A stretch of 64,000 nucleotides of DNA from Variovorax paradoxus (GTDB lineage: Bacteria > Pseudomonadota > Gammaproteobacteria > Burkholderiales > Burkholderiaceae_C). Of this stretch, positions 26,779-44,750 are shown one piece after another. The notes beneath the pieces were generated by a model. The model was not told where the DNA came from, searched no databases, and saw nothing but the letters and a program-made list of their open reading frames with translations. The stretch's first letter is position 1; every line of letters starts with the position of its first letter. The stretch lies in contig NZ_JAUSXG010000001.1 of the NCBI RefSeq assembly GCF_030815855.1, positions 186,001-250,000 on the forward strand, read 5' to 3'. Position numbers and translations under genes: made by a program.

Positions 26779-26790
26779 TAGGGTTTACCC
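26779..26790 (-). promoter_or_regulatory. TAGGGTTTACCC promoter element (copy 1)
   Basis: Read on the minus strand it is GGGTAAACCCTA running into TAGAAT, a plausible -10 box, about 45 bases before the ATG at 26735. The same arrangement occurs at 44365-44378. Confidence 0.55.
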
Positions 26791-26914: not shown

Positions 26915-26928
26915 TTGACCATGGTCAA
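26915..26928. promoter_or_regulatory. TTGACCATGGTCAA palindrome upstream of tctC
   Basis: Perfect 14-base palindrome with FNR/CRP geometry (TTGA-N6-TCAA), about 100 bases before tctC. One of four such sites in 26.9-44.8 kb. The likely binder is the Crp/Fnr protein encoded at 31111-31719. Confidence 0.7.
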
Positions 26929-27021
26929 GCAAGCGAAGTTCTTCCCGCGCGCACCATCGGCCCTGTTCGCATCTCGGCTCAGATCCACTAAAAAAAGAGC
27001 GCACCTTACACAGGAGACAAC

Positions 27022-28047
27022 ATGATGAAGAACTTCTTTTCGCGCACCCGCGCTTGTCGGGCAAAAGTCTTCACCGCGGCCATGTTGGCACTCGCGGTTG
27101 CGACACCAGCCTTCGCATGGGAGCCCACCAAACCGGTGGAGTTCGTGATTCCCGCGGGGACCGGCGGAGGCGCCGACCAGATGGGCCGGCTGCTGCAGGG
27201 CATCGTCATCAAGTACAAGCTGATGAAGGAGCCGCTGATCGTGGTCAACAAGTCGGGCGGCGCGGGCGCCGAGGGCTTCCTGGCGATCAAGGAAGCCAAG
27301 GGCGATCCGCACAAGATCGTCATCTCGCTCTCCAACCTGTTCACCACGCCGATGGCCACGGGCGTGCCTTTCAACTGGAAAGACATGACGCCTGTTGCGA
27401 TGCTGGCGCTCGACCAGTTCGTGCTGTGGACCAACGCCGAGCAGCCGTACAAGAACGCTTCGGAGTACGTCGCAGCGGCCAAGGCAGCCGGCCCGAACAA
27501 GTTCAAGATGGCTGGCACCGGCTCCAAGCAGGAAGATCAGATCATCACGGTGGCGCTCGAAAAAGCCACCGGCACCAAGTTCATCTACGTACCGTTCAAG
27601 GGCGGCGGCGAGGTGGCGGTGCAGCTGGTGGGCGGCCATGTGAATTCCACCGTCAACAACCCGATCGAGGCCGTGGCCCAGTGGCGCGCGGGCAAGCTGC
27701 GCGCGCTGTGCGTGTTCGACGACGAGCGCATGCCGTTCAAGGCCAAGGTCACCGAGACGCAGTCGTGGAACGACATTCCCACCTGCAAGGAAGCCGGCGT
27801 CCCGACCAAGTACACCATGCTGCGCGGCATCTTCATGCCCCCCGGCGTCACGCCCGAACAGCGTGCGTTCTACGTCGACCTGCTGACCAAGATCGCGGCC
27901 ACGCCGGACTGGAAGGAATACATGGAGAAGGGCGCGTTCAACCCGACGTTCATGACGGGCGACCCCTTCACCAAGTGGCTTACCGAAGCGGAAGCCACGC
28001 ACCGCACGCTGATGAGCGAAGCGGGTTTCCTGGCGAGCAGCAAATAG
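27022..28047 (+). CDS. tctC: Bug-family periplasmic receptor of a tripartite tricarboxylate transporter
   Basis: 341 aa (or from the second Met), preceded by CAGGAGAC. The signal peptide ends near residue 33 ('MLALAVATPAFA'). The mature protein shows the Bug fold: 'VEFVIPAGTGGGADQMGR', 'VVNKSGGAGAEGFLAIKEAK', and a late 'MPPGVTPEQRAFYVDLLTKI'. Such receptors bind small carboxylates with high affinity and hand them to TctAB. With tctB and tctA downstream it forms a complete TTT operon. The nearby oxc/frc genes make oxalate or a related C2-C4 diacid the likely ligand (inference). Confidence 0.92.
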   Translation: MMKNFFSRTRACRAKVFTAAMLALAVATPAFAWEPTKPVEFVIPAGTGGGADQMGRLLQGIVIKYKLMKEPLIVVNKSGGAGAEGFLAIKEAKGDPHKIVISLSNLFTTPMATGVPFNWKDMTPVAMLALDQFVLWTNAEQPYKNASEYVAAAKAAGPNKFKMAGTGSKQEDQIITVALEKATGTKFIYVPFKGGGEVAVQLVGGHVNSTVNNPIEAVAQWRAGKLRALCVFDDERMPFKAKVTETQSWNDIPTCKEAGVPTKYTMLRGIFMPPGVTPEQRAFYVDLLTKIAATPDWKEYMEKGAFNPTFMTGDPFTKWLTEAEATHRTLMSEAGFLASSK

Positions 28048-28172
28048 CCATCGAGCGCCCTGCAGCGCTGCTTCATGCCTGAACAGGCTGCGGCCCGGAT
28101 GGGCGGCGGGCGGGCGGAGCGCTGCGCTCTCGTTTTCTTTCACGGCACATAGACACGAACGATGAGGACTCC

Positions 28173-28694
28173 ATGGAGCACGACGAGATTTCCGATGGCG
28201 CGCCGCGCAGGGGCGTAGCGACCAACCTGGTCGAAGCGGTGGTTGCGCTGGTCCTGGTGGTGATAGGGCTGGTGGTGATCTACGAGAGCCAGAGGCTGGG
28301 CTCCGGCTGGACCAGCGACGGCCCCGGTGCGGGGTACTTCCCCTTCTACATCGGCGTGATCATCACAATTTCAGGTGCCGGCATCCTGTACCAGGCTTTG
28401 CTGGGCAAGGACAAGAAGACCGAGGTCTTCGTCGACTCGGTGCAGCTGAAACGCGTGCTGTCGGTTCTGCTGCCGGCCAGCGTGTATGTGCTCGCAATTT
28501 CCTTGCTCGGCCTGTACGTGGCTTCGGCGATCTACATCGCGCTGTTCATGGTGTTCCTGGGCAAGTACTCGTGGGTGAAGAGCGTCATCGCGGCGCTGGC
28601 GGTGAACACGGTTTTCTTCTTCATGTTCGAGGTGTGGTTCAAGGTGCCGCTGTTCAAAGGCGCACTCGACCCCCTTCGTTTTCTCGGCTACTGA
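28173..28694 (+). CDS. tctB: TTT transporter small membrane subunit TctB
   Basis: 173 aa with four predicted membrane spans ('VEAVVALVLVVIGLVVIYES', 'YFPFYIGVIITISGAGILYQ', 'VLLPASVYVLAISLLGLYVA', 'FFMFEVWFKVPLFKG'). The small, poorly conserved subunit of the TTT carrier. It lies 125 bases after tctC and 21 bases before tctA in one operon. Confidence 0.9.
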   Translation: MEHDEISDGAPRRGVATNLVEAVVALVLVVIGLVVIYESQRLGSGWTSDGPGAGYFPFYIGVIITISGAGILYQALLGKDKKTEVFVDSVQLKRVLSVLLPASVYVLAISLLGLYVASAIYIALFMVFLGKYSWVKSVIAALAVNTVFFFMFEVWFKVPLFKGALDPLRFLGY

Positions 28695-28715
28695 ATCTCA
28701 CGGAGCAAACGCGAA

Positions 28716-30245
28716 ATGGAAGAAATCAGTGCCCTGATGCAGGGCTTCTCGGTGATCCTCACGCCCATGAACATCGGTTTGATGTTCGTCGGCATCATCC
28801 TGGGGGTACTGATTGGCGTGCTCCCCGGTTTGGGCGGCGCCAATGGCGTGGCCATTCTGCTGCCCCTCACGTTCACGATGTCGCCCACCTCGGCGATCAT
28901 CATGCTGTCGTGCATCTACTGGGGGGCGCTGTTCGGCGGGGCCATCACCTCCATTCTGTTCAACATCCCGGGCGAGCCCTGGTCGGTGGCCACCACCTTC
29001 GACGGCTACCCGATGGCGCAGCAGGGCAACGCGGGCGCCGCGCTGACCACGGCCTTCACCTCGTCGTTCGTCGGCGCGCTGCTGGCGGTGATCATGATCA
29101 CCTTCCTTGCGCCGCTGGTGGCCAAGTTCGCGCTGAAATTCGGCTCTCCCGAATTCTTTGCGGTGTACCTGCTGACCTTCTGCAGCTTCGTGGGCATGGG
29201 CAAGGGGTCTCCGTTCAAGATCCTGGCCTCGATGGCGCTCGGCTTCGCATTGGCCAGCGTGGGCATGGACACGGTCACCGGCCAGTTGCGGCTCACGTTC
29301 GGCCAGTCCGAACTGATGCGCGGCTTCGACTTCCTGATCGCGGTCATCGGCCTGTTCGGCATCGGCGAAATCCTGCTGTCGATGGAAGAGGGCCTGAAGT
29401 TCTCGGGCAAGACAGCGAAGATCGATCCCAAGGTGGTGCTGCAGACCTGGAAGCAACTGCCGCAGTACTGGGTGACCTCGCTGCGCAGTTCGCTGATCGG
29501 TATCTGGATGGGCATCACGCCCGGCGGCGCCACGCCGGCTTCGTTCATGGCCTACGGCCTCGCCAAGAAGATGTCGAAGCGCGGTTCCAAGTTCGGCACC
29601 GGCCAGATGGAAGGCGTCGTGGCGCCCGAAACCGCGGCGCACGCGGCCGGCACCAGCGCGCTGCTGCCGATGCTGGCGCTCGGCATTCCGGGTTCTCCCA
29701 CCGCCGCGGTGCTGCTGGGCGGCCTGCTGATCTGGGGCCTGCAGCCCGGACCGCTGCTGTTCGTCGAGCAGAAGGACTTCGTCTGGGGCCTGATCGCCAG
29801 CATGTACCTGGGCAACATCGTCGGCCTCATCGTCGTGCTGAGCACGGTGCCGCTGTTCGCTTCGATCCTGCGCATCCCGTTCTCGATCATCGCGCCGGTG
29901 ATCATCGTGATCTGCGCCATCGGCGCCTACACGGTGCACAACGCGATGCTCGACATCTGGTTCATGCTCGGCTTCGGCGTGGTGGGCTACCTGTTCAAGA
30001 AGCTCGACTTTCCGCTCGCGCCGCTGGTGCTGGCGCTGGTGCTCGGGGACAAGGCCGAAGACTCGTTCCGCCAGGCCATGCTGGTCTCGCAGGGCGACGT
30101 GATGATCATGTTCTCGAACCCGCTGGTCGGCGGCATCACCACGCTGGCGCTGGTGCTGCTGTTCTGGCCGCTGATTTCCAAGGCGCTGGCGCTCGTCAAG
30201 CCGAAGAAGCACGACGAGTTTGCCGTCGAACGGCCGGTGGACTGA
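28716..30245 (+). CDS. tctA: TTT transporter large membrane subunit TctA
   Basis: 509 aa, about 12 spans. It carries the two family signatures: 'GVLIGVLPGLGGANGVAILL' near the N-terminus and 'GITPGGATPASFMAYGLAKK' in the second half, which line the substrate path, plus 'LGIPGSPTAAVLLGGLLIWG'. Drives proton- or sodium-coupled uptake of the ligand delivered by TctC. Full length, no defects. Confidence 0.95.
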   Translation: MEEISALMQGFSVILTPMNIGLMFVGIILGVLIGVLPGLGGANGVAILLPLTFTMSPTSAIIMLSCIYWGALFGGAITSILFNIPGEPWSVATTFDGYPMAQQGNAGAALTTAFTSSFVGALLAVIMITFLAPLVAKFALKFGSPEFFAVYLLTFCSFVGMGKGSPFKILASMALGFALASVGMDTVTGQLRLTFGQSELMRGFDFLIAVIGLFGIGEILLSMEEGLKFSGKTAKIDPKVVLQTWKQLPQYWVTSLRSSLIGIWMGITPGGATPASFMAYGLAKKMSKRGSKFGTGQMEGVVAPETAAHAAGTSALLPMLALGIPGSPTAAVLLGGLLIWGLQPGPLLFVEQKDFVWGLIASMYLGNIVGLIVVLSTVPLFASILRIPFSIIAPVIIVICAIGAYTVHNAMLDIWFMLGFGVVGYLFKKLDFPLAPLVLALVLGDKAEDSFRQAMLVSQGDVMIMFSNPLVGGITTLALVLLFWPLISKALALVKPKKHDEFAVERPVD

Positions 30246-30260
30246 GCGGAGAACGACAAC

Positions 30261-31097
30261 ATGCCAGTGATTGCACTCACCCAGGAGATGGGTTCCCTTG
30301 CGAAGGACGTGTCGCAGCGCCTCGCCGAGCAGCTCGGCCTCGAGCTCATGCGGCACGAGACGATCGAGCGCGTGGCCGACCGCATGCAGGTGCCGACCAG
30401 TTTCATCGGCCGCCTGCGCGACGGCAAGGCCGGTTTCGTCGAGCGGCTCACGGCCGACAAGCGCAGCCTTGCGCTCTACACGGCCGAGGAGCTCTTCGCG
30501 CTGGCCGACCGCGGCAACGTGGTGCTGCGCGGCTGGGGCGCGACCTGCCTGCTGCGGCCGGTGCCGCACGTGGTGTGCGTGCGCATCACGCGCTCGATGA
30601 AAAAGCGCGTCGAATGGCTGATGACGCACCTGGAGACCGACGATGCCGAGTTCGCCGAAGCCGAGATCCGGCGCAGCGACGACGCGCACGCGGCGCGCAT
30701 GCATGCGCAGTTCGGCGTGACCTGGGGCGACCCGGTGCTCTACGACCTGGTGCTCAACACCGACCGCCTCTCGGTGGACAGCTGCGTGGCGCAGATCCGC
30801 GCGCTGGTGGAACGTCCGGAGTTCGCGGAGACACCCGCCTCTCGCGCGCTCCTGGCCAACATGGCGCTCGCGGCGCGGGTGAAGTCGGCGCTGAAGGACA
30901 ACGAGGCAACCGGCGACATCCGCGTGACCGTCGAGGCCGACCAGGGCAAGGTCACGCTGCGCGGCATCGTGCTGAACGCGGAGGAGCGCGCTCTCACGGA
31001 GGCCGTAGCCTCCAGGGTCGACGGCGTGAGCGGCGTCGACAACGCGCTGCGCCTGATGAGCGTACCGCGCCGCTTCGCCTCGTCGAAGCAAACTTGA
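30261..31097 (+). CDS. Cytidylate-kinase-like protein fused to a BON domain
   Basis: 278 aa. Residues 1-190 belong to the Cytidylate_kin2 family ('VIALTQEMGSLAKDVSQRLA', 'GRLRDGKAGFVERLTADKR', 'VLRGWGATCLLRPVPHVVCV'). The usual glycine-rich P-loop of nucleotide kinases is not evident, so kinase activity is doubtful. Residues 205-270 form a BON domain ('VTVEADQGKVTLRGIVLNAE'), normally a lipid- or ligand-binding fold. It starts 15 bases after tctA, so it is co-transcribed with the transporter; a regulatory or sensing role is a guess. Confidence 0.8.
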   Translation: MPVIALTQEMGSLAKDVSQRLAEQLGLELMRHETIERVADRMQVPTSFIGRLRDGKAGFVERLTADKRSLALYTAEELFALADRGNVVLRGWGATCLLRPVPHVVCVRITRSMKKRVEWLMTHLETDDAEFAEAEIRRSDDAHAARMHAQFGVTWGDPVLYDLVLNTDRLSVDSCVAQIRALVERPEFAETPASRALLANMALAARVKSALKDNEATGDIRVTVEADQGKVTLRGIVLNAEERALTEAVASRVDGVSGVDNALRLMSVPRRFASSKQT

Positions 31098-31110
31098 GTA
31101 CGGCGCCTGC

Positions 31111-31719
31111 CTAGATCTTTCCGCGTTTTCGGAGCCGGCTCAGGGTTTCCGCGGAGAGATTGAGGTACGACGCGAGCTCCTTGCTGGGGATGCGGTCTTC
31201 CAGCTCGGGGTGCTTGCGCATGAACCGGTGCACGCGGCCCGGCGCGTCGAGCAAGTGCAGCGTGATCGTGTGCGCCATGATTTCGCTCATGCCGCGCATC
31301 ACGCAGTACTCGAACAGCTCCTTGGTGTCGGGGTGGCGGTTCAAGAACGCGATCCACTCCTTCAGCGGCAGGCTGGCCACCCGGGCCTTGGTGACGCACA
31401 CGATGCCGTAGGGCGTGGGCGTGCCCAGCCGCAGCGCCGCGTAGCTGGTTTCCATGTCGTGCGCATCGGCGAAGCGAAGGATCATTTCCTTGCCCTCGGG
31501 GTTGCTCACCACCCGCTTGAGGATGCCGTCGAGGATGAAGTACTGCTCCATCTCGCGCACGCCCTGGTGCAGCAGAAAGTCGCCCTTGTTGCCGTCCACG
31601 ATGACGAGATGGGTTTCCAGTTCGGCGCGTTCGCTCTCGCTCAGGTCCTTGAGAAGGATGTTCTGCCGGAGCTGCGCGCGAATGATGTTTTTCTCCGGGT
31701 GGTTTTCCAACAACGTCAT
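31111..31719 (-). CDS. Crp/Fnr-family transcriptional regulator of the oxalate module
   Basis: 202 aa from the ATG at 31719, within a longer open frame. N-terminal cyclic-nucleotide-type effector barrel (about 20-130; 'GDFLLHQGVREMEQYFILDG') and a C-terminal winged helix with recognition helix 'SAETLSRLRKRG'. This keeps the Glu-x-x-Ser-Arg pattern by which FNR reads TTGA half sites. There is no N-terminal cysteine cluster, so it is not an Fe-S oxygen sensor; the ligand is unknown. It is divergent from oxc, with a TTGA-N6-TCAA palindrome between them, and three more such sites at other promoters of the module. Autoregulation is likely. Confidence 0.85.
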   Translation of the reverse strand: MTLLENHPEKNIIRAQLRQNILLKDLSESERAELETHLVIVDGNKGDFLLHQGVREMEQYFILDGILKRVVSNPEGKEMILRFADAHDMETSYAALRLGTPTPYGIVCVTKARVASLPLKEWIAFLNRHPDTKELFEYCVMRGMSEIMAHTITLHLLDAPGRVHRFMRKHPELEDRIPSKELASYLNLSAETLSRLRKRGKI

Positions 31720-31788
31720 GGGTCCCGTCTTGCTCGAATTCGCAACAACAACATCTGGTTCGTCTGGCCGGTGCCGTTTTCCGGAAAG

Positions 31789-31802
31789 TTGACCGAGGTC
31801 AA
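31789..31802. promoter_or_regulatory. TTGACCGAGGTCAA palindrome between regulator and oxc
   Basis: With the flanking G and C the arms are seven bases (GTTGACC / GGTCAAC, 31788-31803). Centred about 77 bases upstream of the regulator and 80 bases upstream of oxc; suited to control both. Confidence 0.75.
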
Positions 31803-31875
31803 CGCCTGAAAGCATGCCCCCGAATCATAGTCCCGGCTCGGGCCTCGGCCATTCACCCAAGCAAGAAGGAGAGAC

Positions 31876-33705
31876 ATGTCTTCAGTAAGAACGGACAAAG
31901 AGGCATCCACCACCCTGGACGACGCCCTCAAGCCCAAGAACAGGGCTGCAGACGGCGACGCGGTCGTGCTCGCACTCAAGCAACCCACGGAGGAGGCGGC
32001 ATCGGCGCAGGACGCGACGATCGACGGTTTCCACCTGGTCATCGATGCGCTGAAGCTGAACGACATCGACACGATCTTCGGCCTGCCGGGCATCCCCATC
32101 ACCGACCTGACGCGCATGGCCCAGGCAGAGGGCCTGCGCGTCATCTCGTTCCGCCACGAGCAGCATGCGGGCAACGCCGCGGCCGCCGCCGGCTTTCTCA
32201 CGCAGAAGCCGGGCATCTGCCTCACGGTGTCGGCGCCAGGCTTCCTGAACGGCCTCACCGCGCTGGCCAATGCCACCACCAACTGCTTCCCGATGATTCT
32301 CATCAGCGGCTCGAGCGAGCGCGAGATCGTCGACCTGCAGCAGGGCGACTACGAAGAGATGGACCAGCTCGCGATCGCCAAGCCGCTGTGCAAGGCCGCC
32401 TTCCGCGTGCTGCATGCCGAAGACATCGGCGTGGGCATTGCACGTGCCATTCGCTCGGCGCTGTCGGGCCGCCCGGGCGGCGTGTACCTCGACCTGCCGG
32501 CCAAGCTGTTCGCGCAGACGATGGACGCCGAAGCCGGCCGCCGGTCGCTGATCAAGGTGGTCGATCCGGCACCGCGCCAGATTCCGGCGCCTGACGCAGT
32601 CAATCGCGCACTCGACCTGCTTAAGGGCGCGAAGAAGCCGCTGATCCTGCTCGGCAAGGGCGCAGCCTACGCGCAGGCCGACGCCGACATTCGCGCATTG
32701 ATCGAGAAGACCGGCATTCCCTACCTGCCGATGTCGATGGCGAAGGGCCTGTTGCCCGACACGCATGCGCAATCGGCCGCGGCCGCGCGCTCGTACGTGC
32801 TGCAGGAAGCCGACGTGGTGATGCTGGTCGGCGCGCGCCTGAACTGGCTGCTCTCGCACGGCAAGGGCAAGACCTGGGGCCAGGAGAAGGGCGCCAAGCA
32901 GTTCATCCAGATCGACATCGCGCCGACCGAGATCGACAGCAACGTGGCCATTGCCGCGCCGGTGATCGGCGACATCGGCTCCTGCGTGGCGGCGCTGCTC
33001 GCGGGCGTCGATGCCAAGTGGGTCAAGCCGCCGGCCGAATGGACCGGCGCCATTGCCGAGCGCAAGGACAAGAACCTCTCGAAGATGGCCGTGACGCTGG
33101 CCGCACGCCCGTCGCCGATGAACTTTCACAGCGCGCTGAGCGTGATCCGCGACCAGGTGAAGGCACGGCCCGACGCCATCGTGGTGAACGAAGGCGCCAA
33201 CACGCTCGACTTCGCGCGCAGCATCGTCGACATGTACGAGCCGCGCAAGCGCCTCGACGTGGGCACCTGGGGAATCATGGGCATCGGCATGGGCTTTGCC
33301 GTGGCGGCCGCGGTGGTCACCGACAAGCCGGTGATCGCCATCGAGGGCGACAGCGCCTTCGGCTTCAGCGGCATGGAGGTGGAAACCATCTGCCGCTACA
33401 ACCTGCCGATCTGCATCATCGTGTTCAACAACAACGGCGTCTACCGCGGCACCGACGTGAACGCGAGCGGCACGCCCGACGTGGCGCCCACCGTGTTCGT
33501 GAAGAACGCGCGCTACGACAAGCTGATGGAGGCCTTCGGCGGCGTGGGCGTCAACGCGACCACCGCGGATGAATTGCAGGCGGCACTGGCCGAAGCCGTG
33601 GCTTCGCGCCGGCCGACCCTCATCAATGCCGTCATCGACGAGACCGCCGGAACGGAAAGCGGCCGGATCACCAGCCTCAATCCGAGCACGGCGAAGAAGA
33701 AGTAA
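31876..33705 (+). CDS. oxc: Oxalyl-CoA decarboxylase
   Basis: 609 aa. Thiamine-diphosphate enzyme converting oxalyl-CoA to formyl-CoA and CO2. Clear family motifs: '[20 protein letters not shown]', catalytic Glu in '[17 protein letters not shown]', '[18 protein letters not shown]', '[20 protein letters not shown]', and the ThDP/Mg motif from 'GDSAFGFSG' to 'FNNNGVYRG'. Compared with the ~568-aa Oxalobacter enzyme it has about 40 extra residues at the N-terminus, low-complexity and charged, before '[18 protein letters not shown]'. Start ATG has AAGGAGAG. It heads the oxc-frc block and pairs with both frc genes. Confidence 0.97.
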
Positions 33706-33734
33706 ATCTGTCCATTCAATCAGGAGAACGCAGC

Positions 33735-35012
33735 ATGAGCAGCAACAACAAACCCCTCAACGGCATCAAGATCATCGACTTCACGCACGTGCAAGCCGGT
33801 CCGGCCTGCACGCAGATGCTGGCCTGGTTCGGCGCCGACGTCATCAAGGTCGAGCGTCCGGGTGCCGGCGACGTCACGCGCAGCCAACTGCGCGACATTC
33901 CGAACGTCGACGCGCTGTACTTCACCATGCTCAACAGCAACAAGCGCTCGATCACGCTGGACACCAAGAAGCCCGAGGGCAAGGCGGTGCTGGAAAAGCT
34001 GATCCGCGAATCCGACGTGCTGGTGGAAAACTTCGGCCCCGGCGCACTCGACCGCATGGGCTTTACCTGGGCACGCATCCAGGAACTGAACCCCAAGATG
34101 ATCGTCGCCTCGGTCAAGGGCTTCAGCGACGGCCATCACTACGAAGACCTGAAGGTGTACGAGAACGTGGCGCAGTGCGCCGGCGGCGCTGCTTCCACCA
34201 CCGGCTGGTGGAAGGGTGAAAACTCGGTTCCGACAATCTCGGCGGCCGCGCTGGGCGACTCCAACACCGGCATGCACCTGGCGATCGGCATTCTCACGGC
34301 CATCATCGGCCGCCAGCAGACCGGCAAGGGCCAGAAGGTGGCCTGCTCGATGCAGGACGCCGTCCTCAACCTGTGCCGCGTGAAGATGCGCGACCAGCAG
34401 CGCCTGGACAACGTCGGCTACTTGGAGGAATACCCGCAGTATCCGCACGACATGGACGCCTTCAAGGACAAGGTGGTGCCGCGCGGCGGCAATGCCGGCG
34501 GCGGCGGCCAGCCGGGCTGGATCCTGAAGTGCAAGGGCTGGCAGACCGACCCCAATGCCTACATCTACTTCACCGTGCAGGGCCATGCCTGGGACCCGAT
34601 CTGCGACGCGCTCGGCAAGCCCGAGTGGAAGACCGATCCCGACTACATGACCCCGAAGGCCCGCCAGCCGCACATCGACCAGATCTTCGCGACCATCGAG
34701 GACTTCATCAAGGACAAGACCAAGTTCGAGGCCGTGGACATCTTCCGCAAGCATGACATTCCCTGCGCCCCGGTGCTGTCGATGAAGGAACTGCTGCACG
34801 ACGAGTCGCTGCGCAAGAGCGGCTCCATCGTCGAAGTCCCGCACAAGGAGCGCGGCAGCTACTGGACCATCGGCAGCCCGATCAAGTTCTCTGACCTCAA
34901 GCCCGAGGTCACCGCTTCGCCGCTGCTGGGCGAGCACACCGACGAGGTGCTGGCGGAACTGGGCTACAGCAAGCAAGAGATCGACAATCTCAAGGAAGCA
35001 AAAGCCGTGTAG
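33735..35012 (+). CDS. frc: Formyl-CoA:oxalate CoA-transferase, copy 1
   Basis: 425 aa, class III CoA-transferase. Swaps CoA from formyl-CoA to oxalate, feeding Oxc. Visible: '[20 protein letters not shown]', '[15 protein letters not shown]', '[14 protein letters not shown]', the catalytic Asp in '[17 protein letters not shown]', '[19 protein letters not shown]', and the glycine loop '[13 protein letters not shown]' that closes over the active site. Close to the Oxalobacter enzyme in length and motifs. It starts 29 bases after oxc, RBS AGGAG. Confidence 0.96.
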
Positions 35013-35019
35013 CGGCTCC

Positions 35020-35058
35020 CCCGGCTTTGCCCGCTTGAAAAAGGCGGGCGAAGCCGGG
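35020..35058 (+). terminator. Strong hairpin between frc copy 1 and the PAS gene
   Basis: 15-base stem, CCCGGCTTTGCCCGC (35020-35034) against GCGGGCGAAGCCGGG (35044-35058), one G-T pair, nine-base loop. No T-run follows, so it may act as an mRNA stabiliser or attenuator rather than a full terminator. Confidence 0.6.
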
Positions 35059-35086
35059 AAATCGACATGAAGCGCCAGAGGTAAAC

Positions 35087-35524
35087 ATGCAAGCGAACGT
35101 TGATTTCAAGCAGCTCGTCGAAGGCGCCGGCGACGCGATCATGGTGTGCGACGCGAAAGGGGCGATCACGTTCTGGAACCGCGCCGCCGAGCGCATCTTC
35201 GGCTTCACCGAAGCCGAGGCGCTGGGCCAGTCGCTCGACATGATCATTCCCCAGCGGCAGCGCCAGCGCCACTGGGACGGCTACCAAAAGACCATGGAAA
35301 CCGGCATCACCAAGTACGGTGCCGATCTGCTGCGCGTACCGGCGCTGCACAAGGACGGACACACGCTGTCGATCGCCTTCACGGTGTCGATGCTGTTCTC
35401 CGAGAGTCGTGAAGTCACGGGCATCGTCGCCATCGTGCGAGACGAAACCGCCCGTTTCGCCGAAGAGCGTAAATTGCGCGCTCGTCTGCAAGAAGCAGAG
35501 GCCACGATCAAAGGAGACAGCTGA
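35087..35524 (+). CDS. Single PAS-domain protein
   Basis: 145 aa, essentially one PAS domain: '[20 protein letters not shown]', '[20 protein letters not shown]', '[20 protein letters not shown]', '[15 protein letters not shown]', then a short helix. No histidine kinase, GGDEF or HTH output is attached. Its stop overlaps the frc copy 2 start (TGATG), so it is translated with an oxalate enzyme. It could be a small sensor or a protein-binding regulator of the pathway; unknown. Confidence 0.85.
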
Positions 35525-36771
35525 TGAGCAAGGCACTAGCGGGTGTTCGCATTCTCGATTTCACCCATGTTCAGTCCGGCCCCACCTGCACCCAGCTGCT
35601 GGCGTGGTTCGGCGCCGACGTGATCAAGGTGGAGCGCGCCGGAGAGGGCGACGCCACGCGCGGCCAGCTGCGCGACATTCCCGGTGTGGACAGCCTCTAC
35701 TTCACGATGCTGAACCACAACAAGCGCTCGATCACGCTCGACACCAAGAAGCCCAAGGGCAAGAAGGTGCTCGACACGCTGATCAAGACCTGCGACGTGC
35801 TGGTCGAGAACTTCGCGCCCGGCGCGCTCGACCGCATGGGCATTACCTGGGCCCATATCCAGGAGCTCAATCCGCGCATGATCGTGGCGTCGGTCAAGGG
35901 CTTCGGTCCCGGCAAGTACGAGCATTGCAAGGTGTACGAGAACGTGGCGCAGTGCGCGGGCGGCGCGGCCTCGACCACCGGCTTCGAGGACGGCCCGCCG
36001 GTCGTCACGGGCGCGCAGATCGGCGACAGCGGCACCGGCCTTCACTTGGCGCTGGGCATCGTGGCGGCGCTCTACCAGCGCAACAGCACGGGCCGCGGCC
36101 AGCAGGTGCTCGCGCCCATGCAGGACGCGGTGCTGAACCTGTGCCGCGTGAAGATGCGCGATCAGCAGCGGCTCGAGCGCACCGGCACCATGCACGAATA
36201 CCCGCAGTACCCCGACGGCAAGTTCGGCGACGCGGTGCCGCGCGCGGGCAATGCCTCGGGCGGCGGCCAGCCGGGCTCCATTCTCAAGTGCAAGGGCTGG
36301 GAGACCGACCCCAACGCCTACATCTACTTCATCACGCAGGGGGCGGTGTGGCCGGCGGTGTGCAAGGTCATCGGCGAAGAAGGCTGGATCACCGACGAGG
36401 CCTACGCCACGCCGGCGGCGCGCCTCTTGCACCTGAAGCCGATCTTCGCGCGCATCGAGCAATGGACCATGACCAAGACCAAGTTCGAAGCCATGGACAT
36501 CCTCAACCAGTACGACATTCCGTGCGGGCCGATTCTTTCGATGAAGGAAATCGCCGCCGACGAGTCGCTGCGAGAGACCGGCACCATCGTCGAAGTCGAC
36601 CACCCGACGCGGGGCAAATACCTGACGGTGGGCAACCCGATCAAGATGTCCGACAGCCCGACCGAGGTCACGCGCTCGCCGCTGCTCGGCGAGCACACCG
36701 AAGAAGTGCTGATGCAGTTGGGCTACACCGCTGGCGACGTGGAATCGCTGCGCGCCGAAGGCGTGATCTGA
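35524..36771 (+). CDS. frc: Formyl-CoA:oxalate CoA-transferase-like, copy 2
   Basis: 415 aa, very similar to copy 1 throughout ('[20 protein letters not shown]', '[20 protein letters not shown]', catalytic Asp in '[18 protein letters not shown]'). The glycine loop differs: '[13 protein letters not shown]' instead of [11 protein letters not shown]. Since this loop shapes the active site in the Oxalobacter enzyme, copy 2 may prefer another CoA donor or acceptor (inference). Coupled to the PAS gene by a one-base overlap. Confidence 0.93.
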
Positions 36772-36808
36772 GCTGAAGCGCCATTGAGGGCTCAAGGAAC
36801 CGCGGGTG

Positions 36809-36870
36809 GTGAATGCATCCGCAGCGGTAATTCACGGCCATTTATGTATAACTTATCGTGAATGCATTCA
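36809..36870. promoter_or_regulatory. AT-rich promoter region with two GTGAATGCATYC motifs
   Basis: Motif copies at 36809-36820 and 36858-36869; the second is part of the perfect palindrome TGAATGCATTCA (36859-36870). The stretch 36840-36915 is strikingly AT-rich for this genome and contains TATAAC-like boxes. Probably a second promoter for the downstream sucCD-like genes. Confidence 0.5.
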
Positions 36871-36974
36871 ATAAAATAGTTTAACTATTATTTATCGATC
36901 ATAGGATCTACATTTTGATCATGCCGACCCGCAAACAATTTGCCGAACGGCGTTCAATTTCTAGGAGAAATTTC

Positions 36975-37304
36975 ATGATCGATGAATTGCCGATTCAATA
37001 CTGGAGCAGCGAAACCGAGCGCAATGCGTACAACGCGGCGTTCTACGAACTGGGCTTTCGCTGGCACTGGGACCGTGAAATCTATTGCCAGCTGCTTCGC
37101 CAGAGCCAGGACGGTATCGAGCGTGTCTGCCACTACCTCAGTAACCACCAGCCGCATCTTCTGCGTGCCTACGACGCCAAATCCCTGGCCGAGGTGATCG
37201 AGCAGAAGAAGGAAGAGCACCAAAAACGCGAATTGGGCAACGGGACCATGAAGAAGCGCTATTTCAATTGGGCCGAAAGCCGCGGCGCGGAACTCGGCGC
37301 CTGA
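36975..37304 (+). CDS. Conserved small protein before the CoA-ligase pair
   Basis: 109 aa from the ATG at 36975, which has an ideal AGGAG; in-frame starts 54 and 60 bases upstream are less likely. Aromatic-rich N-terminal half ('LPIQYWSSETERNAYNAAFY', 'ELGFRWHWDREIYCQLLRQS') and a charged helix ('SLAEVIEQKKEEHQKREL'). No family recognised. It ends six bases before the sucC-like gene, so it belongs to the same transcript. Confidence 0.75.
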   Translation: MIDELPIQYWSSETERNAYNAAFYELGFRWHWDREIYCQLLRQSQDGIERVCHYLSNHQPHLLRAYDAKSLAEVIEQKKEEHQKRELGNGTMKKRYFNWAESRGAELGA

Positions 37305-37310
37305 ATTGCC

Positions 37311-38483
<1,173 letters not shown>

Positions 38484-38526
38484 AAACTTGCTCTTCGATT
38501 CGTCGCGTTGTGCGTTCAGGGTGCGC

Positions 38527-38749
38527 TCCCGCTGATGGGGTACCTTGCTCCGCGAATGTCCCCCGGCCTGCGGCCTCCTCCTTTATTTCGCTGCGCAAGG
38601 CACCCCATCAGCGGGACCGTTGTACAGAGCGGTCGTTGATCGCACGGAACAAGCGCAGCGCCCGGTGTGCACAGGGCATCGGGTGCTCCCCGCAGCGAAA
38701 TCAAGGAGGAGGGCGAAGCCCGGGGGACATTCGCGGAGGGGAGTACCCG
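38527..38749. repeat. Interspersed repeat element with nested inverted repeats
   Basis: Two nested inverted pairs: 38527-38548 with 38595-38616 (CCCGCTGATGGGG / CCCCATCAGCGGG), and about 38540-38595 with 38691-38749 (CCGCGAATGTCCCCCGG against its complement, then the CTCCTCCTT.ATTTCGCTGCG segments). It fills the sucC-sucD gap. I believe it belongs to a family repeated in Variovorax genomes, but this is from memory of style, not a search. Confidence 0.65.
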
Positions 38750-38821
38750 GTGGCCTTTGCACAAGCCCTGAACAGCAGCGCCAAGAAAAGCCGCGCCAAG
38801 AACAAGACCCGGAGAGCTGAC

Positions 38822-39721
38822 ATGTCGATTTTGGTCAACAAGCACACCCGCGTCATCACCCAAGGCATCACCGGAAAAACCGGGCAGTTCCACACCGCCA
38901 TGTGCCGCGACTACGGCAACGGCCAGAAATGCTTTGTCGCCGGTGTGAACCCCAACAAGGCGGGCAAGTCCTTCGACGGCATTCCAGTGTTCGGCACGGT
39001 GAAGGAAGCCAAGGCAGAGACCGGCGCCACCGTGTCGGTCATCTACGTGCCGCCGCCGTTCGCAGCTGCCGCCATCGACGAGGCCGTCGATGCGGGGCTC
39101 GACCTGGTCGTGTGCATCACCGAAGGCATCCCCGTGCGCGACATGATCCGCACCCGCCATCGCATGGAAGGCAGCAAGACGCTGCTGCTCGGTCCCAACT
39201 GCCCGGGCCTCATCACGCCTGACGAAATCAAGATCGGCATCATGCCCGGCCACATCCACCAGAAAGGCCGCATCGGCGTGGTCTCGCGCTCCGGCACGCT
39301 CACCTACGAGGCCGCGAGCCAGCTTGCGAGCTTCGGCATCGGGCAGTCGACCGTCGTGGGCATCGGCGGCGATCCGGTCGGCGGGTTGCGGCACATCGAC
39401 GTGCTGAAGATGTTCAACGACGATCCGCGCACCGACGCCGTGATCATGGTCGGCGAAATCGGCGGCAACGACGAAGAGATTTGCGCGCGCTGGATCCGGG
39501 ACCACATGCAGAAGCCCGTGGTCGGCTTCATTGCCGGTGCCAGCGCACCGCCGGGCAAGCGCATGGGCCATGCGGGTGCCATCGTCTCCGGGGGCAACGG
39601 AACCGCACAGGGAAAACTGGCGGTGATGAAGGAGTGCGGCATTCACGTGACCGACAACCCCGCCGAGATGGGAAAGCTGCTTGCGTCGCTCGTCGTCCCG
39701 GACTACCTGCCCTTCGACTGA
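38822..39721 (+). CDS. SucD-like CoA ligase alpha subunit
   Basis: 299 aa from the ATG at 38822 with GGAGAGC upstream; the open frame extends further up through the repeat element, which I exclude. CoA-binding Rossmann domain ('[20 protein letters not shown]', '[20 protein letters not shown]') and ligase domain with the phospho-His in '[12 protein letters not shown]'. Pairs with the SucC-like subunit, from which it is separated by a 338-base repeat. Confidence 0.88.
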
Positions 39722-39760
39722 GCTCCAAAAAACACTCCAACAGAAATCAAGGAACGCGAC

Positions 39761-40543
39761 ATGCAACAACAGCAGCAGCAACAACGGTGGGTCCGTTTCG
39801 AACACGGCGGCGAAACGGCCTTCGGCACGCTCGAAGGCGATGCCGTGCACGAGCACCGCGGCAACATGTTCGAACGCCCGGAGCCGACAGGCCGCGTGTT
39901 CCTGCTCTCGGGCGTGCGGCTCCTCACGCCCACCGAGCCGACCAAGGTCATTGCGCTGTGGAACAACTTCCATGCGCTCGGCGAAAAGCTCAAGCTGCCG
40001 GTGCCCGCGGAGCCGCTCTACCTGCTGAAGGCGCCCAACTCCTACCTTGCGCCCGGCGCGGGCATCCGCAAGCCGCTGTGCGACGGAAAGGTGGTGTTCG
40101 AGGGTGAGCTCGGCATCGTCATCGGCAAGACCTGCACCGCGGTGCCCGAGGCGGAGGCGCTCGGCCACGTGTTCGGCTACACCTGCGCCAACGACGTGAC
40201 GGTCGCCGACATATTGAACCGCGATGCGTCGTTCGCCCAGTGGGTGCGCGCCAAGGGCTTCGACACCTTCTGCCCGATGGGCCCAGTGGTGGCCACCGGC
40301 CTCGACCCCGCCACGCTGACCGTGACCACGCTGCTCGACGGCGAGGTGCGGCAGAACTATCCGATCAGCGACATGCGCTTTTCGGTCCAGCAACTCGTAA
40401 GCCTGATCTCCCTCGACATGACGCTGCATCCCGGCGACGTGATCCTGTGCGGCACGTCCATCGGCGTCGGCTCGATGAAGCCTGGCAGCCTGGTCGAGGT
40501 CGAGATCGGCGGCATCGGCAGGCTCGGCAACCGCTTCGGCTGA
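39761..40543 (+). CDS. Fumarylacetoacetate-hydrolase-family protein
   Basis: 260 aa. Poly-Gln start, small N-terminal domain ('VRFEHGGETAFGTLEGDAV'), then the FAH fold: 'KVIALWNNFHALGEKL', metal-binding acids in 'VVFEGELGIVIGK' and 'YTCANDVTVADI', and 'LHPGDVILCGTSIGVGSMKP'. FAH-family enzymes hydrolyse or decarboxylate beta-diketo acids and tautomerise oxaloacetate. Within an oxalate block, an oxaloacetate- or acylpyruvate-directed activity is plausible but unproven. Confidence 0.88.
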   Translation: MQQQQQQQRWVRFEHGGETAFGTLEGDAVHEHRGNMFERPEPTGRVFLLSGVRLLTPTEPTKVIALWNNFHALGEKLKLPVPAEPLYLLKAPNSYLAPGAGIRKPLCDGKVVFEGELGIVIGKTCTAVPEAEALGHVFGYTCANDVTVADILNRDASFAQWVRAKGFDTFCPMGPVVATGLDPATLTVTTLLDGEVRQNYPISDMRFSVQQLVSLISLDMTLHPGDVILCGTSIGVGSMKPGSLVEVEIGGIGRLGNRFG

Positions 40544-40592
40544 GGCCTGTCTGCCCGCGCGCGCGCAAAGAATCAACAACTTGGGGATCGAC

Positions 40593-41606
40593 ATGAAGAT
40601 AGCAGTCATCGGAGCGGGCGCCATCGGCGGCCTGGTGGGCGCAAAGCTCGCCCTGGCCGGCGAGGACGTGACGTTCATCGTGCGCGGAAAGAACCTCGAC
40701 GCCATTGCCACCAACGGCTTCAAGCTCATCGGAGCCGACGGCACCGAGCAGGTGGCGCTCAACGCCAAAGCGACCGACCGCTACGACCAGGCGGGGCCGC
40801 AGGACATCGTGGTGCTGGCGATGAAGGCGCACCAGGTCGAGGCCGTGGCGAACGACGTTCCCAAGCTGTTCGGGCCCGAGACCGTCGTGGTCACGATGCA
40901 GAACGGCATCCCGTTCTGGTACTTCCACGGCCACGGCGGCGCGCTCGCGGGCACGCCGGTGCGCAGCGTCGATCCCACCGGCCTGGTGGCCGCGAAGATT
41001 CCGGCCGAGCGCGTCATCGGCTGCGTGGTGTACCCGGCGTCCGAGCTCATCGCGCCGGGCGTGGTGAAGCACATCGAGGGCGACCGTTTTCCGGTCGGCG
41101 AACTCGACGGCTCTTCGAGCGAGCGCGTGAACCGCGTCTCGGCCTGCTTCACTGCGGCCGGCTTCAAGGCGCCGGTGCTCGACAACATCCGCGCCGAAAT
41201 CTGGCTCAAGCTCTGGGGCAACCTGACCTTCAACCCGATCAGCAGCCTGTCGCATTCGACACTCGTCGACATCTGCCAGTACCCGCCTTCGCGCGCGCTG
41301 GCCGCGTCGATGATGGAAGAGGCGCAGGCCGTGGCCCACAAGCTGGGCATCGAGTTCCGCGTGACGCTCGACAAGCGCATTGCCGGCGCTGAAAAAGTCG
41401 GCAAGCACAAGACCTCGATGCTGCAGGACGTGGAAGCCGGGCGCGCGCCGGAGATCGATGCGCTGGTGGGCGCCGTGGTCGAACTGGCCCGGCTCACCGA
41501 CACCCCGACGCCGCACATCGACACCGTGTATTCCCTCGTCAAGCTGCTGGCGCGTACGATGGAAGAACAGCGCGGCCGGGTTTGCCTTCACGAAATGGCG
41601 GACTAG
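40593..41606 (+). CDS. 2-dehydropantoate 2-reductase-like protein
   Basis: 337 aa from the ATG at 40593. ApbA/PanE family: NADP-binding 'KIAVIGAGAIGGLVGAKLAL', 'ILVLAMKAHQ'-like strand ('DIVVLAMKAHQVEAVAND'), 'MQNGIPFWYF', and C-terminal helices with 'LWGNLTFNPISSLSHSTLVD' and 'KTSMLQDVEAGRAPEIDALV'. Reduces a 2-keto acid, classically ketopantoate in pantothenate/CoA synthesis. Its place here could support CoA supply or reduction of another keto acid; paralogues with other substrates are common. Confidence 0.85.
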   Translation: MKIAVIGAGAIGGLVGAKLALAGEDVTFIVRGKNLDAIATNGFKLIGADGTEQVALNAKATDRYDQAGPQDIVVLAMKAHQVEAVANDVPKLFGPETVVVTMQNGIPFWYFHGHGGALAGTPVRSVDPTGLVAAKIPAERVIGCVVYPASELIAPGVVKHIEGDRFPVGELDGSSSERVNRVSACFTAAGFKAPVLDNIRAEIWLKLWGNLTFNPISSLSHSTLVDICQYPPSRALAASMMEEAQAVAHKLGIEFRVTLDKRIAGAEKVGKHKTSMLQDVEAGRAPEIDALVGAVVELARLTDTPTPHIDTVYSLVKLLARTMEEQRGRVCLHEMAD

Positions 41607-41659
41607 CGCCACTGGGGCTGGGCGATTTTGCGCAGCCCGTGTGCGCTGTGATCAATGAA

Positions 41660-43087
41660 ATGGAACGGATGATGCGACGTACACGCAGCGCGAAGATCGT
41701 GGCCACACTGGGCCCTGCCACCACCGACGAACCGGCCATCCGTGCCCTGTTCGAGCGCGGCGTGGATGTGTTCCGGCTCAACTTCAGTCACGGCACGCAG
41801 CACGACCACGCGCGCCGCCTCGACACCATCCGGCGGCTCGAGAAAGAGTTCGGCCGGCCCATCGGCGTACTGCTCGACCTGCAGGGGCCGAAGCTGCGGC
41901 TCGGTACTTTCGAAGGCGGCCGCGCGCAGCTCGATGCGGGGTCGCGCTTTCGCCTCGACATGGACGCCACGAGCGGCAATGCACGCCGCGCACCGCTGTT
42001 GCATCCGGAAATCTTCGCGGCGCTGCAGGTGGGCACCGATCTGCTGCTCGACGACGGCAAGCTGCGGCTGCGCGTCGACAGTTACGGCGCCGACTTCGCA
42101 GAAACTACGGTGCTCGTCGGCGGGCCCATCTCCGACCGCAAGGGCGTGAATGTGCCGAGCGTGGTGCTGCCGATTTCGCCGCTCACGCCGAAAGACCTCG
42201 ACGACCTGGCCTGCGGCCTGGCGATGGGCGTGGACTGGGTCGCGCTTTCCTTCGTGCAGCGCCCCGAGGACATCGAAGAGGCGCGCGCCATCATCGGCAC
42301 CCGCGCGTGGATCATGGCCAAGCTCGAGAAGCCCGCGGCCATCGACCACCTGGATGCCATCGTCGATTTGTGCGACGGCGTCATGGTTGCGCGCGGCGAC
42401 CTCGGCGTGGAGCTGCCGCCCGAGCGCGTGCCCGAATTGCAGCGCCTGATCGTGCGTGCCTGCCGCAAGCGCGGCAAGCCGGTGGTCGTGGCCACGCAAA
42501 TGCTCGAATCGATGATTGCCGCACCGGTGCCCACGCGCGCCGAGGTGTCCGACGTTGCCACCGCCATCTACGACGGCGTGGATGCGGTCATGCTGTCGGC
42601 CGAATCGGCCTCCGGAAAGTATCCGCTGGAGGCCGTTTCCATGATGGAGCGGATCATCTCGCGCGTGGAATCCGATGCGTCCTACCGCATCGGCATCGAC
42701 GCCACGCACGAAGCGTCCTTGTCGACCACGGCCGACGCGGTCTGCGCTTCGATGCGGCAGGTGGCTGCGCTGCTGGCGCCCGCCGCCACCGTCACCTACA
42801 CCTCCTCGGGCTTCACGAGCCTGCGCGCCGCGCGGGAGCGGCCCGCGGTTTCCATCCTGGGGCTGACACCCGACATCGCCACCGCGCGCCGCATGGCGAT
42901 GGTGTGGGGCGTGCATGCGGTGCTGGTCGACGACGTGCACGACGTGGCCGAGATGATCGAGTGCGCCTGCCGTGTCGCATGCACCGAAGGCTTCGCGAGC
43001 ACCGGCAGCGACGTGGTGGTGGTGGCGGGCCTTCCTTTCGGGCTTTCGGGAACGACCAACCTGCTGCACGTCGCGCGCATACCCTAG
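41660..43087 (+). CDS. pyk: Pyruvate kinase
   Basis: 475 aa; the start is uncertain (ATG at 41660, 41669 or 41672). Complete core: 'RSAKIVATLGPAT', 'DVFRLNFSHG', 'VLLDLQGPKLRLGTF', substrate/metal loop 'IMAKLEKPAAIDHLDAIVDL', 'GVMVARGDLGVELPPERVP', 'QMLESMIAAPVPTRAEVSD', 'YDGVDAVMLSAESASGKYP', and the C-terminal allosteric domain. Converts PEP and ADP to pyruvate and ATP. Pyruvate kinases next to glyoxylate/glycerate genes are frequent in oxalate- and tartrate-users, fitting assimilation of C2 units through glycerate. Confidence 0.93.
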   Translation: MERMMRRTRSAKIVATLGPATTDEPAIRALFERGVDVFRLNFSHGTQHDHARRLDTIRRLEKEFGRPIGVLLDLQGPKLRLGTFEGGRAQLDAGSRFRLDMDATSGNARRAPLLHPEIFAALQVGTDLLLDDGKLRLRVDSYGADFAETTVLVGGPISDRKGVNVPSVVLPISPLTPKDLDDLACGLAMGVDWVALSFVQRPEDIEEARAIIGTRAWIMAKLEKPAAIDHLDAIVDLCDGVMVARGDLGVELPPERVPELQRLIVRACRKRGKPVVVATQMLESMIAAPVPTRAEVSDVATAIYDGVDAVMLSAESASGKYPLEAVSMMERIISRVESDASYRIGIDATHEASLSTTADAVCASMRQVAALLAPAATVTYTSSGFTSLRAARERPAVSILGLTPDIATARRMAMVWGVHAVLVDDVHDVAEMIECACRVACTEGFASTGSDVVVVAGLPFGLSGTTNLLHVARIP

Positions 43088-43158
43088 GCCCTTTTCGAGA
43101 GAGGCTCGGCGCGCCGCAAGATGCCTCCCCGCTCGCAGCAGCAGCAATCCTTTTCCGA

Positions 43159-44106
43159 ATGAAGCACGCGACCCTGCGCCAGTTGAAAGTCTTCGAAGCG
43201 GTGGCGCGCTTGCTGAGCTTCTCGCGCGCGGCGGAAGAGCTTCACCTGACGCAGCCGGCTGTTTCCACGCAGGTGCGCAAGCTCGAAGAGCACGCGGGCA
43301 ACGCGCTGTTCGAGCAGTTCGGCAAGAAGATCTACCTGACACCGGCCGGTACCGAGCTGCTGCAGATCAGCCGCGCGATCATCCAGCAGTTCGAGGCGGC
43401 CGAGAACGCAATGCTGCAGTTCAACGGCGTCTCGGGCGGCAAGCTCAACGTGGGCGTGATCAGCGCGGGCGACTACTTCTTTCCGCGCCTCCTGGTGGAG
43501 TTCGCGAGCCGGCATCGCGGCGTGACGCTGAACTTCACCGTGCACAACCGCGAAGGGCTCATGACCCACATCGCGGAGAACCTCACCGATCTCGCGATCA
43601 TGGTGCGGCCGCCGACCGACCTGGACACCGTCAACCAGCCCTTTGCGCCGCACCCTTATGTGATCGTCGCGGCGCCCAACCATCCGCTGGTGGGCGCGCC
43701 GAAAATCCCCTTGGCCCGGCTGATGCGCGAGCCTTTCGTGGTGCGCGAGAAAGCCTCGGACACCTGGCATTCGATGGAAGAGGGCTTCGGCGGCGACCTC
43801 CGCGGCATCAACATCGCGATGGAAATCCGCAGCACCGAAACCATCAAGCAGGCAGTCATCGCGGGCATGGGCGTGAGCTTCGTGTCGGCCCACACCATCA
43901 GCCAGGAGCTGCGCGCCGGCAGCCTGCGCGTGCTCGATGTGCAGGGCTTTCCGCTGATGCTCCACTGGTACGTGGTGCATCGGCGCAGCAAGCGCCTGCC
44001 GCCGGTGGCGCAGGCCTTCAAGGACTTTCTGCTCGCCGACGGGGCGGGGCTCATCTCGCAGATCGTGCCCTTCGGCAATTCCAATGAAAAAGAGCGCGGC
44101 GAGTAG
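43159..44106 (+). CDS. LysR-family regulator (CbbR-like)
   Basis: 315 aa. HTH in 'TLRQLKVFEAVARLLSFSRA', 'AEELHLTQPAVSTQVRKLEE'; effector domain 'LNVGVISAGDYFFPRLLVEF', 'IMVRPPTDLDTVNQPFAPHP'. Resembles the CbbR/RbcR group that governs carbon assimilation genes. Starts 72 bases after pyk in the same direction. Probably a local regulator for the carbon-assimilation part of the cluster. Confidence 0.88.
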   Translation: MKHATLRQLKVFEAVARLLSFSRAAEELHLTQPAVSTQVRKLEEHAGNALFEQFGKKIYLTPAGTELLQISRAIIQQFEAAENAMLQFNGVSGGKLNVGVISAGDYFFPRLLVEFASRHRGVTLNFTVHNREGLMTHIAENLTDLAIMVRPPTDLDTVNQPFAPHPYVIVAAPNHPLVGAPKIPLARLMREPFVVREKASDTWHSMEEGFGGDLRGINIAMEIRSTETIKQAVIAGMGVSFVSAHTISQELRAGSLRVLDVQGFPLMLHWYVVHRRSKRLPPVAQAFKDFLLADGAGLISQIVPFGNSNEKERGE

Positions 44107-44148
44107 CTCGCGCGCGCTCTTCGTGGAGAGTGAATCCGGCGTGGCGAC

Positions 44149-44313
44149 TCAACGCTGCACGGCCGCCGAACGGCGTTGCATCAGCGCGGCGCGTGCGGCC
44201 TTGTAGAAAATCACGATGGGCATGGCGGAGAACAGCTCGCGCATTGCGTTGTTGGCGGTCGACGACGAGGAAGGGGTACGCAGGGCGCTGGAATTCAAGG
44301 TGGCGTGGCTCAT
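44149..44313 (-). CDS. 54-residue basic protein
   Basis: Ser-rich start followed by 'NNAMRELFSAMPIVIFYKAA' and 'RAALMQRRSAAVQR', ending Arg-rich. It has the size and amphipathic-helix style of DUF1127-like small proteins but lacks their clear motif. Expression is supported by its promoter region: TAGGGTTTACCCTA followed (minus strand) by TAAAAT at 44361-44378, and TTGACCTAGGTCAA at 44408. Confidence 0.55.
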   Translation of the reverse strand: MSHATLNSSALRTPSSSSTANNAMRELFSAMPIVIFYKAARAALMQRRSAAVQR

Positions 44314-44364
44314 TGGCGGCTCCAAAGGTTGAATCGAAAAGACTGAAGGGATTACCCTCGATTT

Positions 44365-44378
44365 TAGGGTTTACCCTA
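44365..44378 (-). promoter_or_regulatory. TAGGGTTTACCCTA promoter element (copy 2)
   Basis: Inverted repeat TAGGGT/ACCCTA with two central bases. On the minus strand it runs into TAAAAT (-10-like), 52 bases before the ATG at 44313; an imperfect second copy (GGGTAATCCC) follows. Confidence 0.6.
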
Positions 44379-44407
44379 GACGGGCGCAAACGCCATTTTT
44401 GCGTTTC

Positions 44408-44421
44408 TTGACCTAGGTCAA
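44408..44421. promoter_or_regulatory. TTGACCTAGGTCAA palindrome
   Basis: Perfect 14-base palindrome of the TTGA-N6-TCAA class, about 95 bases upstream of the small gene at 44149-44313. Confidence 0.7.
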
Positions 44422-44736
44422 TTTTTTCCGCCGCAGACGGGTTCTGGCATCCGCCGGCTGCTGGAGCCCTTCGGGAGGAGTTCGAGCGAGCGCGCAACGC
44501 GCATCGCACCTCACGAAGGCCGTCGCACGGACCATCGAAAGTTCGCGCGAAGAGCGCCGAATTTCTTCTTTGCAATACCGTGTCTTCGCATTTGCGCAAT
44601 GCACATCGCATGCAGCGCAAGGTGTGCATGCATTGCCGCGTGTTTCGAGCGGTATCCATTCACGCAAGTGCGCGCGCATCGAGGCTTGGTGCGAGGGATA
44701 CCACGGGGCTTCGGCGTGAGCGCGATTCGCGTGAAC

Positions 44737-44750
44737 TTGACGGAGGTCAA
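44737..44750. promoter_or_regulatory. TTGACGGAGGTCAA site upstream of the MFS transporter
   Basis: TTGAC/GTCAA arms with four-base spacer, about 180 bases upstream of the transporter start; the only imperfect member of the four sites in its centre. Confidence 0.65.

Follow-up and report, generated by a model that had tools for sequence, protein, structure and literature searches.

A candidate Crp/Fnr regulon for oxalate catabolism in Variovorax paradoxus and related Burkholderiales

Among the described regulators of the Crp/Fnr family, CRP contacts cyclic AMP (cAMP) through residues E72, R82 and S83. Half-sites of the TTGAC type are known from FixK2 and Fnr/Dnr binding sites, according to PMC9104804 and PMC5398030. 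The oxc gene of Escherichia coli is mentioned in the YbdO/CitR section of PMC9068703 among the genes changed in a study of LysR-type regulators, which are not Crp/Fnr proteins. In the present study we analysed a 64,000-nucleotide stretch of the Variovorax paradoxus genome (assembly GCF_030815855.1, contig NZ_JAUSXG010000001.1, positions 186,001 to 250,000; hereafter the window), which carries a block of genes for oxalate uptake and degradation, including oxc (oxalyl-CoA decarboxylase), together with a gene encoding a Crp/Fnr protein (hereafter the regulator). Phylogenetic footprinting strongly supports the view that oxalate catabolism has a Crp/Fnr regulon of its own. With a probability of roughly 85%, the regulator would be a dedicated transcription activator of the oxalate genes, acting through TTGACC-type palindromes in class II position and switched by a metabolite. 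Our literature search, which covered few subscription journals, found no Crp/Fnr regulator of the oxc/frc route and no regulon of this kind.

The window contains four copies of the palindrome TTGAC-N4-GTCAA (Table 1), as reported in the initial annotation, versus a mean of 0.04 in shuffled sequence. The whole host genome (5.95 Mb) has six copies (three of the reversed-pattern control), which are not scattered at random, four of them lying within one 17.8-kb block (binomial p 1.2e-9 for at least four of six). Neither of the remaining two, placed inside a coding open reading frame (ORF) or at the start of one, has the complete TTGACC-N2-GGTCAA form. The relaxed pattern TTGA-N6-TCAA was rejected as a genome-wide definition of the regulon, since its 34 copies compare with 33 of the reversed control, and thus only the extended palindrome is informative at this scale. 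The centres of the sites are located 100.5 bp upstream of the ATG of tctC, 80.5 bp upstream of that of oxc, 76.5 bp upstream of that of the regulator gene (in its 202-aa form, see below) and 181.5 bp upstream of that of oxlT; the site at 44408 lies about 101 bp upstream of a 54-aa minus-strand ORF.

The distribution of the regulator was analysed in 300 genomes of the order Burkholderiales, the host genome included. The regulator was found in 54 of them and oxc in 53; both were present in 46, the regulator only in 8, oxc only in 7, and neither in 239 (Fisher p 3e-38). When the roughly 600 bp preceding each oxc were searched for TTGA-N6-TCAA, a site was detected in 44 of the 46 regulator-bearing genomes and in none of the 7 that have oxc alone (p 2.3e-7); for the strict TTGAC-N4-GTCAA form the counts were 32/46 and 0/7. 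The seventh negative genome (G229), whose gene falls below the 60% identity threshold, was checked separately, and its nearest match is placed about 700 bp upstream. As background, the relaxed site occurred in 31 of 1144 windows of 630 bp from the same loci. The 44 positive cases comprise 39 of the 40 oxc genes in the same locus as the regulator, that of the window itself, and 4 of the 5 located on another contig. The last of these weigh most, because there oxc has no intergenic region in common with the regulator gene. We also inspected 80 named loci, found via exact peptides and hence from close relatives (about half of them Variovorax); of the 79 with enough sequence, 77 have a site in the 300 bp preceding the regulator gene (72 strict).

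The sites are also kept at other promoters. In regulator loci they precede 77 of the 91 tctC genes for which 400 bp or more of 5' sequence could be examined. Most orthologues of oxc and tctC thus carry a site where the regulator is kept, and the regulon withstands the refuting conditions named in the initial annotation. They likewise precede 11 of 16 oxlT genes (at least 65% identity), many frc genes in relatives, and 13 of 16 genes for formate-tetrahydrofolate ligase (fhs; one of the three misses is at a contig end). The identity of both fhs genes tested was confirmed with NCBIfam, and the presence of sites at this formate-assimilation gene adds functional coherence to the proposed regulon. 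In Variovorax, a site was found upstream in all 19 oxlT-like loci, from 18 of 41 genomes (3 of these loci being a partial match or paralogues of 56–59% identity). The second palindrome at this promoter, which had initially been assigned to a small gene, is present at 44408, but it is kept in only 7 of the 19 loci (an eighth, L254, has a similar one) and has no -10 element at the class II position.

At each of those seven second sites, a pair of AGGGWTTACCC words is found 68 bp away. In the window such words are located at 44347-44376 and 26780-26790, 5' of short minus-strand ORFs of 54 and 79 aa; of six genomic copies, three are in the window, none of them more than about 135 bp from a TTGACC site.

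The initially proposed comparison of genomes with and without the regulator revealed that the extended palindrome is denser in the former. Genomes that have the regulator contain 0.80 copies of TTGACYNNRGTCAA per Mb and those that lack it 0.33 (reversed control, 0.05 and 0.12). The regulator loci account for 49 of the 158 sites of their genomes, a density 91-fold above that found elsewhere in them (reversed control, 0). Outside these loci, regulator-bearing genomes still have 0.56 sites per Mb versus 0.33 in genomes without the regulator, and further targets of the predicted regulon are therefore likely to exist beyond the regulator loci.

To describe the promoters, 141 sites, non-redundant at 80% identity and oriented towards their target, were compared (oxc 45, a gene for a 2-hydroxyacyl-CoA-lyase (HACL)-like enzyme 8, tctC 54, oxlT 24, frc2 10). 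Hexamers at +29/+30, counted from the site centre, match TATAAT at 3.56 of 6 positions on average, versus 1.86 at control offsets (maximum 2.04), and this offset ranks first of 116 in each of the five promoter groups; a weighted -10 score gives the same peak in four. With a spacing of 17 nt, matches in the -35 slot do not rise above background (1.89 vs 2.07), and an A-rich stretch is present 5' of the upstream half-site. A -10 hexamer starting at +29 or +30 places the site centre at -41.5 or -42.5. Judging from this spacing rather than from mapped transcription starts, the target promoters appear to have the layout of class II activator promoters, least clearly so for tctC. Position 5 of the sites is C in 125 cases, T in 12, G in 3 and A in 1; they thus depart from the FNR consensus TTGAT-N4-ATCAA and have C/G beside the half-site in place of the T/A of FNR, which bears out the initial description.

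Proteins of V. paradoxus and its relatives share 99% identity with the regulator. The listed ORF of the regulator, of 234 aa, would take in the palindrome at 31789. The true start is likely at residue 33 (ATG at 31719), because 102 of the 120 best homologues listed have 202–208 aa (the other 18 are longer); this gives a protein of 202 aa and leaves the palindrome non-coding. The 234-aa ORF was rejected as a reference for distances to the regulator, as its alignments overrun the operator, and the count of 85/132 obtained with it is not meaningful. The protein has a sensor domain of the cNMP_binding type (PF00027, E 1.9e-9, 37.8 bits, cut-off 27.5) and a helix-turn-helix with a recognition helix, the hidden Markov model (HMM) alignment running through the recognition helices of CRP and DNR. 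A search with the HTH_Crp_2 profile gave no match to the regulator, probably because the wing is missing, the C-terminus lying 7 residues past ETLSR. The Glu-x-x-Ser-Arg pattern recognized initially proved to be strictly kept: E191, S194 and R195 (202-aa form) are invariant in 41 aligned sequences, the others being 70–96% identical to that of the window. The same form has only two cysteines, C108 and C139, and so lacks an N-terminal cluster of the FNR type, again in agreement with the initial reading. In the HMM alignment the cAMP contacts of CRP are not kept, their places being taken by S92, T102 and P103. An AlphaFold2 model (mean predicted local distance difference test score, pLDDT, 79.6; residues 76-78 and 82-88 of the sensor domain below 50) aligned with CRP and GlxR chains at template modelling (TM) scores of 0.45–0.63 and a root-mean-square deviation of 8–11 Å over about 200 columns, among the 50 matches listed. 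In this model the domains match those of CRP and GlxR, but their arrangement does not match closely.

On the basis of the sites, their conservation, their dependence on the presence of the regulator and the -10 spacing, all seen by comparison, the following mechanism can be proposed. The regulator would bind 14-bp palindromes resembling TTGACCGCGGTCAA, whose centres lie at -41.5/-42.5 in the promoters of oxc, tctCBA and oxlT, and in relatives also of frc and fhs, where it would contact RNA polymerase and stand in for the missing -35 box, as in class II activation. A pathway metabolite, and not cAMP or oxygen, would most likely control its activity. Binding of oxalate, oxalyl-CoA or formyl-CoA in the cNMP-type pocket, via an invariant E-T-S-Y and nearby basic residues, is a tentative suggestion with somewhat less than even odds. 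If this is true, a Crp/Fnr protein would sense a two-carbon dicarboxylate or its thioester, and in many Burkholderiales oxalate import, decarboxylation and formate assimilation (fhs) would be joined in one regulon. With the operator and promoter layout named, oxalate sensing becomes directly testable; the operator may serve to find oxalate genes, and the regulator is a candidate oxalate-responsive switch.

Several observations weigh against this interpretation. The genomes compared are related and not independent, and the seven oxc-only negatives represent four families, two of which (f31, f46) also contain positives. In the stretches examined, 2 of 46 oxc, 14 of 91 tctC and 5 of 16 oxlT genes have no site. 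In a second set of 55 regulator loci, only 40 have a site 5' of the regulator gene (28 strict); several of the 15 misses concern loci in which regulator and oxc are not divergent and oxc or frc is preceded by the site instead. Autoregulation is made less certain by the finding that, in the direction of the regulator gene, there is no -10 element at class II spacing. For tctC the weighted score has its peak at -21 and +30 comes second. Sites in genomes that lack the regulator exceed the reversed control (273 vs 98), and some copies therefore lie outside this regulon. Finally, a scan of 17 PF00027 proteins revealed a second short cNMP-domain protein in the host genome (L283), with a P-E-S-L-S-R helix, and this paralogue could bind similar sites.

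The E-x-x-S-R helix of L283, together with the TTGAC half-sites of FixK2 and Fnr/Dnr cited above, would fit the view that the sites serve a different Crp/Fnr protein, one of the FNR/FixK/DNR type mediating oxygen or nitric oxide (NO) control, and that the neighbouring regulator is incidental. We regard this as improbable, since the sites are absent 5' of oxc in the seven genomes without the regulator and present in four of five in which oxc is on another contig. Moreover, A/V-E-x-x-S-R is absent from the 15 other proteins inspected among 37 HTH_Crp_2 matches, 20 of them over the cut-off (one of the 15 has R-E-M-V-S-R), and TTGAT-N4-ATCAA is scarce in the host genome (2 of the 34 TTGA-N6-TCAA copies).

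Marginally less improbable is repression, with the regulator blocking the -35 region until oxalate or a metabolite derived from it sets it free: site and -35 position do overlap, and local repressors of catabolic genes are common. A -10-like element kept at class II spacing with no -35 match is, however, what is expected of activator-dependent promoters. That the palindromes reflect chance or a general repeat is extremely unlikely in view of the shuffled control and of their retention at orthologous promoters (oxc, tctC, oxlT, fhs and the regulator gene), even though the two further host copies fall inside coding ORFs or at their start and genomes without the regulator also have sites, at lower density. 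The reading of the regulator as a dedicated activator of the oxalate genes is thus the one we prefer.

As shown in Table 1, the block contains, besides the regulator and oxc, genes for transport, for formyl-CoA transfer and for several accessory functions. No NCBIfam family was assigned to tctCBA at E 0.001; their orthologues adjoin the regulator in many loci. A scan of the plus strand between 36700 and 45000 found no promoter-like site, and no terminator-like site besides the 44737 palindrome itself. It is therefore possible that the genes after frc2 (37311..44106) form the downstream part of the oxc transcription unit by read-through from the oxc promoter. The LysR gene of this group is CbbR-like, below the profile cut-off. 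Initially the whole oxalate block had been placed in one regulon; this agrees with the conserved sites at the oxc, tctC and oxlT promoters, but does not extend directly to the genes after frc2, which have no promoter-like site of their own. An inverted-repeat element of about 225 bp is located at 38524-38748, between the sucC- and sucD-like genes.

Table 1. Candidate regulatory sites and genes of the oxalate block (window coordinates, except for the last row)
Feature	Position	Strand	Remarks
Candidate operator TTGACCATGGTCAA	26915..26928	.	5' of tctC; weak -10 candidate CACCAT at +30
tctC, tctB, tctA	27022..30245	+	tripartite tricarboxylate-type transporter; names from earlier sequence reading
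Cytidylate_kin2 + BON domain protein	30261-31097	+	3' of tctA; adjoins regulator in many loci
Regulator, Crp/Fnr family, 202 aa	31111..31719	-	cNMP-type sensor domain; recognition helix S-A-E-T-L-S-R
Candidate operator TTGACCGAGGTCAA	31789..31802	.	regulator/oxc intergenic; -10 candidate CATAGT, +30 from centre towards oxc
oxc, oxalyl-CoA decarboxylase	31876..33705	+	TIGR03254, 998.9 bits, cut-off 739.4
frc1, PAS-domain protein, frc2	33735..36771	+	formyl-CoA transferases, TIGR03253, 716.6 and 718 bits (cut-off 504.2); PAS, TIGR00229, 77 bits
sucC-sucD-like CoA ligase, FAA hydrolase family, PanE-like reductase, putative pyruvate kinase-like, LysR	37311..44106	+	
Palindrome TTGACCTAGGTCAA	44408..44421	.	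5' of 54-aa minus-strand ORF; no -10 at class II position
Candidate operator TTGACGGAGGTCAA	44737..44750	.	5' of oxlT; weak -10 candidate GACAGT at +29
oxlT-like oxalate/formate antiporter of the major facilitator superfamily (MFS)	44925..46250	+	TIGR04259, 671.2 bits, cut-off 335
2-hydroxyacyl-CoA-lyase-like enzyme	L061:10603-12369	+	also L062, L063, L069, L072, L075, L080, named locus L201

In a wider sample of 299 genomes across the phylum, the six regulator matches were all inside the order. The name of a Sulfuricaulis metagenome-assembled genome in the protein database hints at the regulator outside it, and in Oxalobacter the regulator was not seen in the named-genome scan or among the best 120 homologues listed. 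In 7 of the 8 regulator-bearing genomes without oxc, a 2-hydroxyacyl-CoA-lyase-like thiamine pyrophosphate (TPP) enzyme replaces oxc beside the regulator. It is about 25% identical to Oxc, the proteins of L061 and L069 are below all NCBIfam cut-offs shown, and the closest solved relatives of the former are 2-hydroxyacyl-CoA lyases. From its position, this enzyme is possibly a second kind of oxalyl-CoA decarboxylase; the regulator loci would in that case point to an alternative enzyme in the place of Oxc in several lineages.

Compared with the known systems, the regulator shares with FNR of the E. coli type the TTGA half-site, the E-x-x-S-R pattern and the class II position, but differs in the lack of an N-terminal cysteine cluster and of a wing (202 aa), in the flanking C/G of its putative sites and in the pathway-specific nature of the predicted regulon. 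DNR is its second-best sequence match in the PDB (3dkw, E 1.2e-7), with E-T-F-S-R at the equivalent place; the regulons of FixK2 and DNR, however, consist of microoxic and denitrification genes, whereas here oxalate genes are concerned and the TTGAC-type palindrome is extended towards TTGACC-N2-GGTCAA. CRP resembles the regulator in its fold, as judged from the AlphaFold2 model, and in class II geometry, but its half-site is TGTGA instead of TTGA and the cAMP contacts E72/R82/S83 are replaced by S92/T102/P103. The best sequence match in the PDB is 3dn7 (E 3.1e-14), a cyclic-nucleotide-binding regulatory protein which is also short (194 aa).

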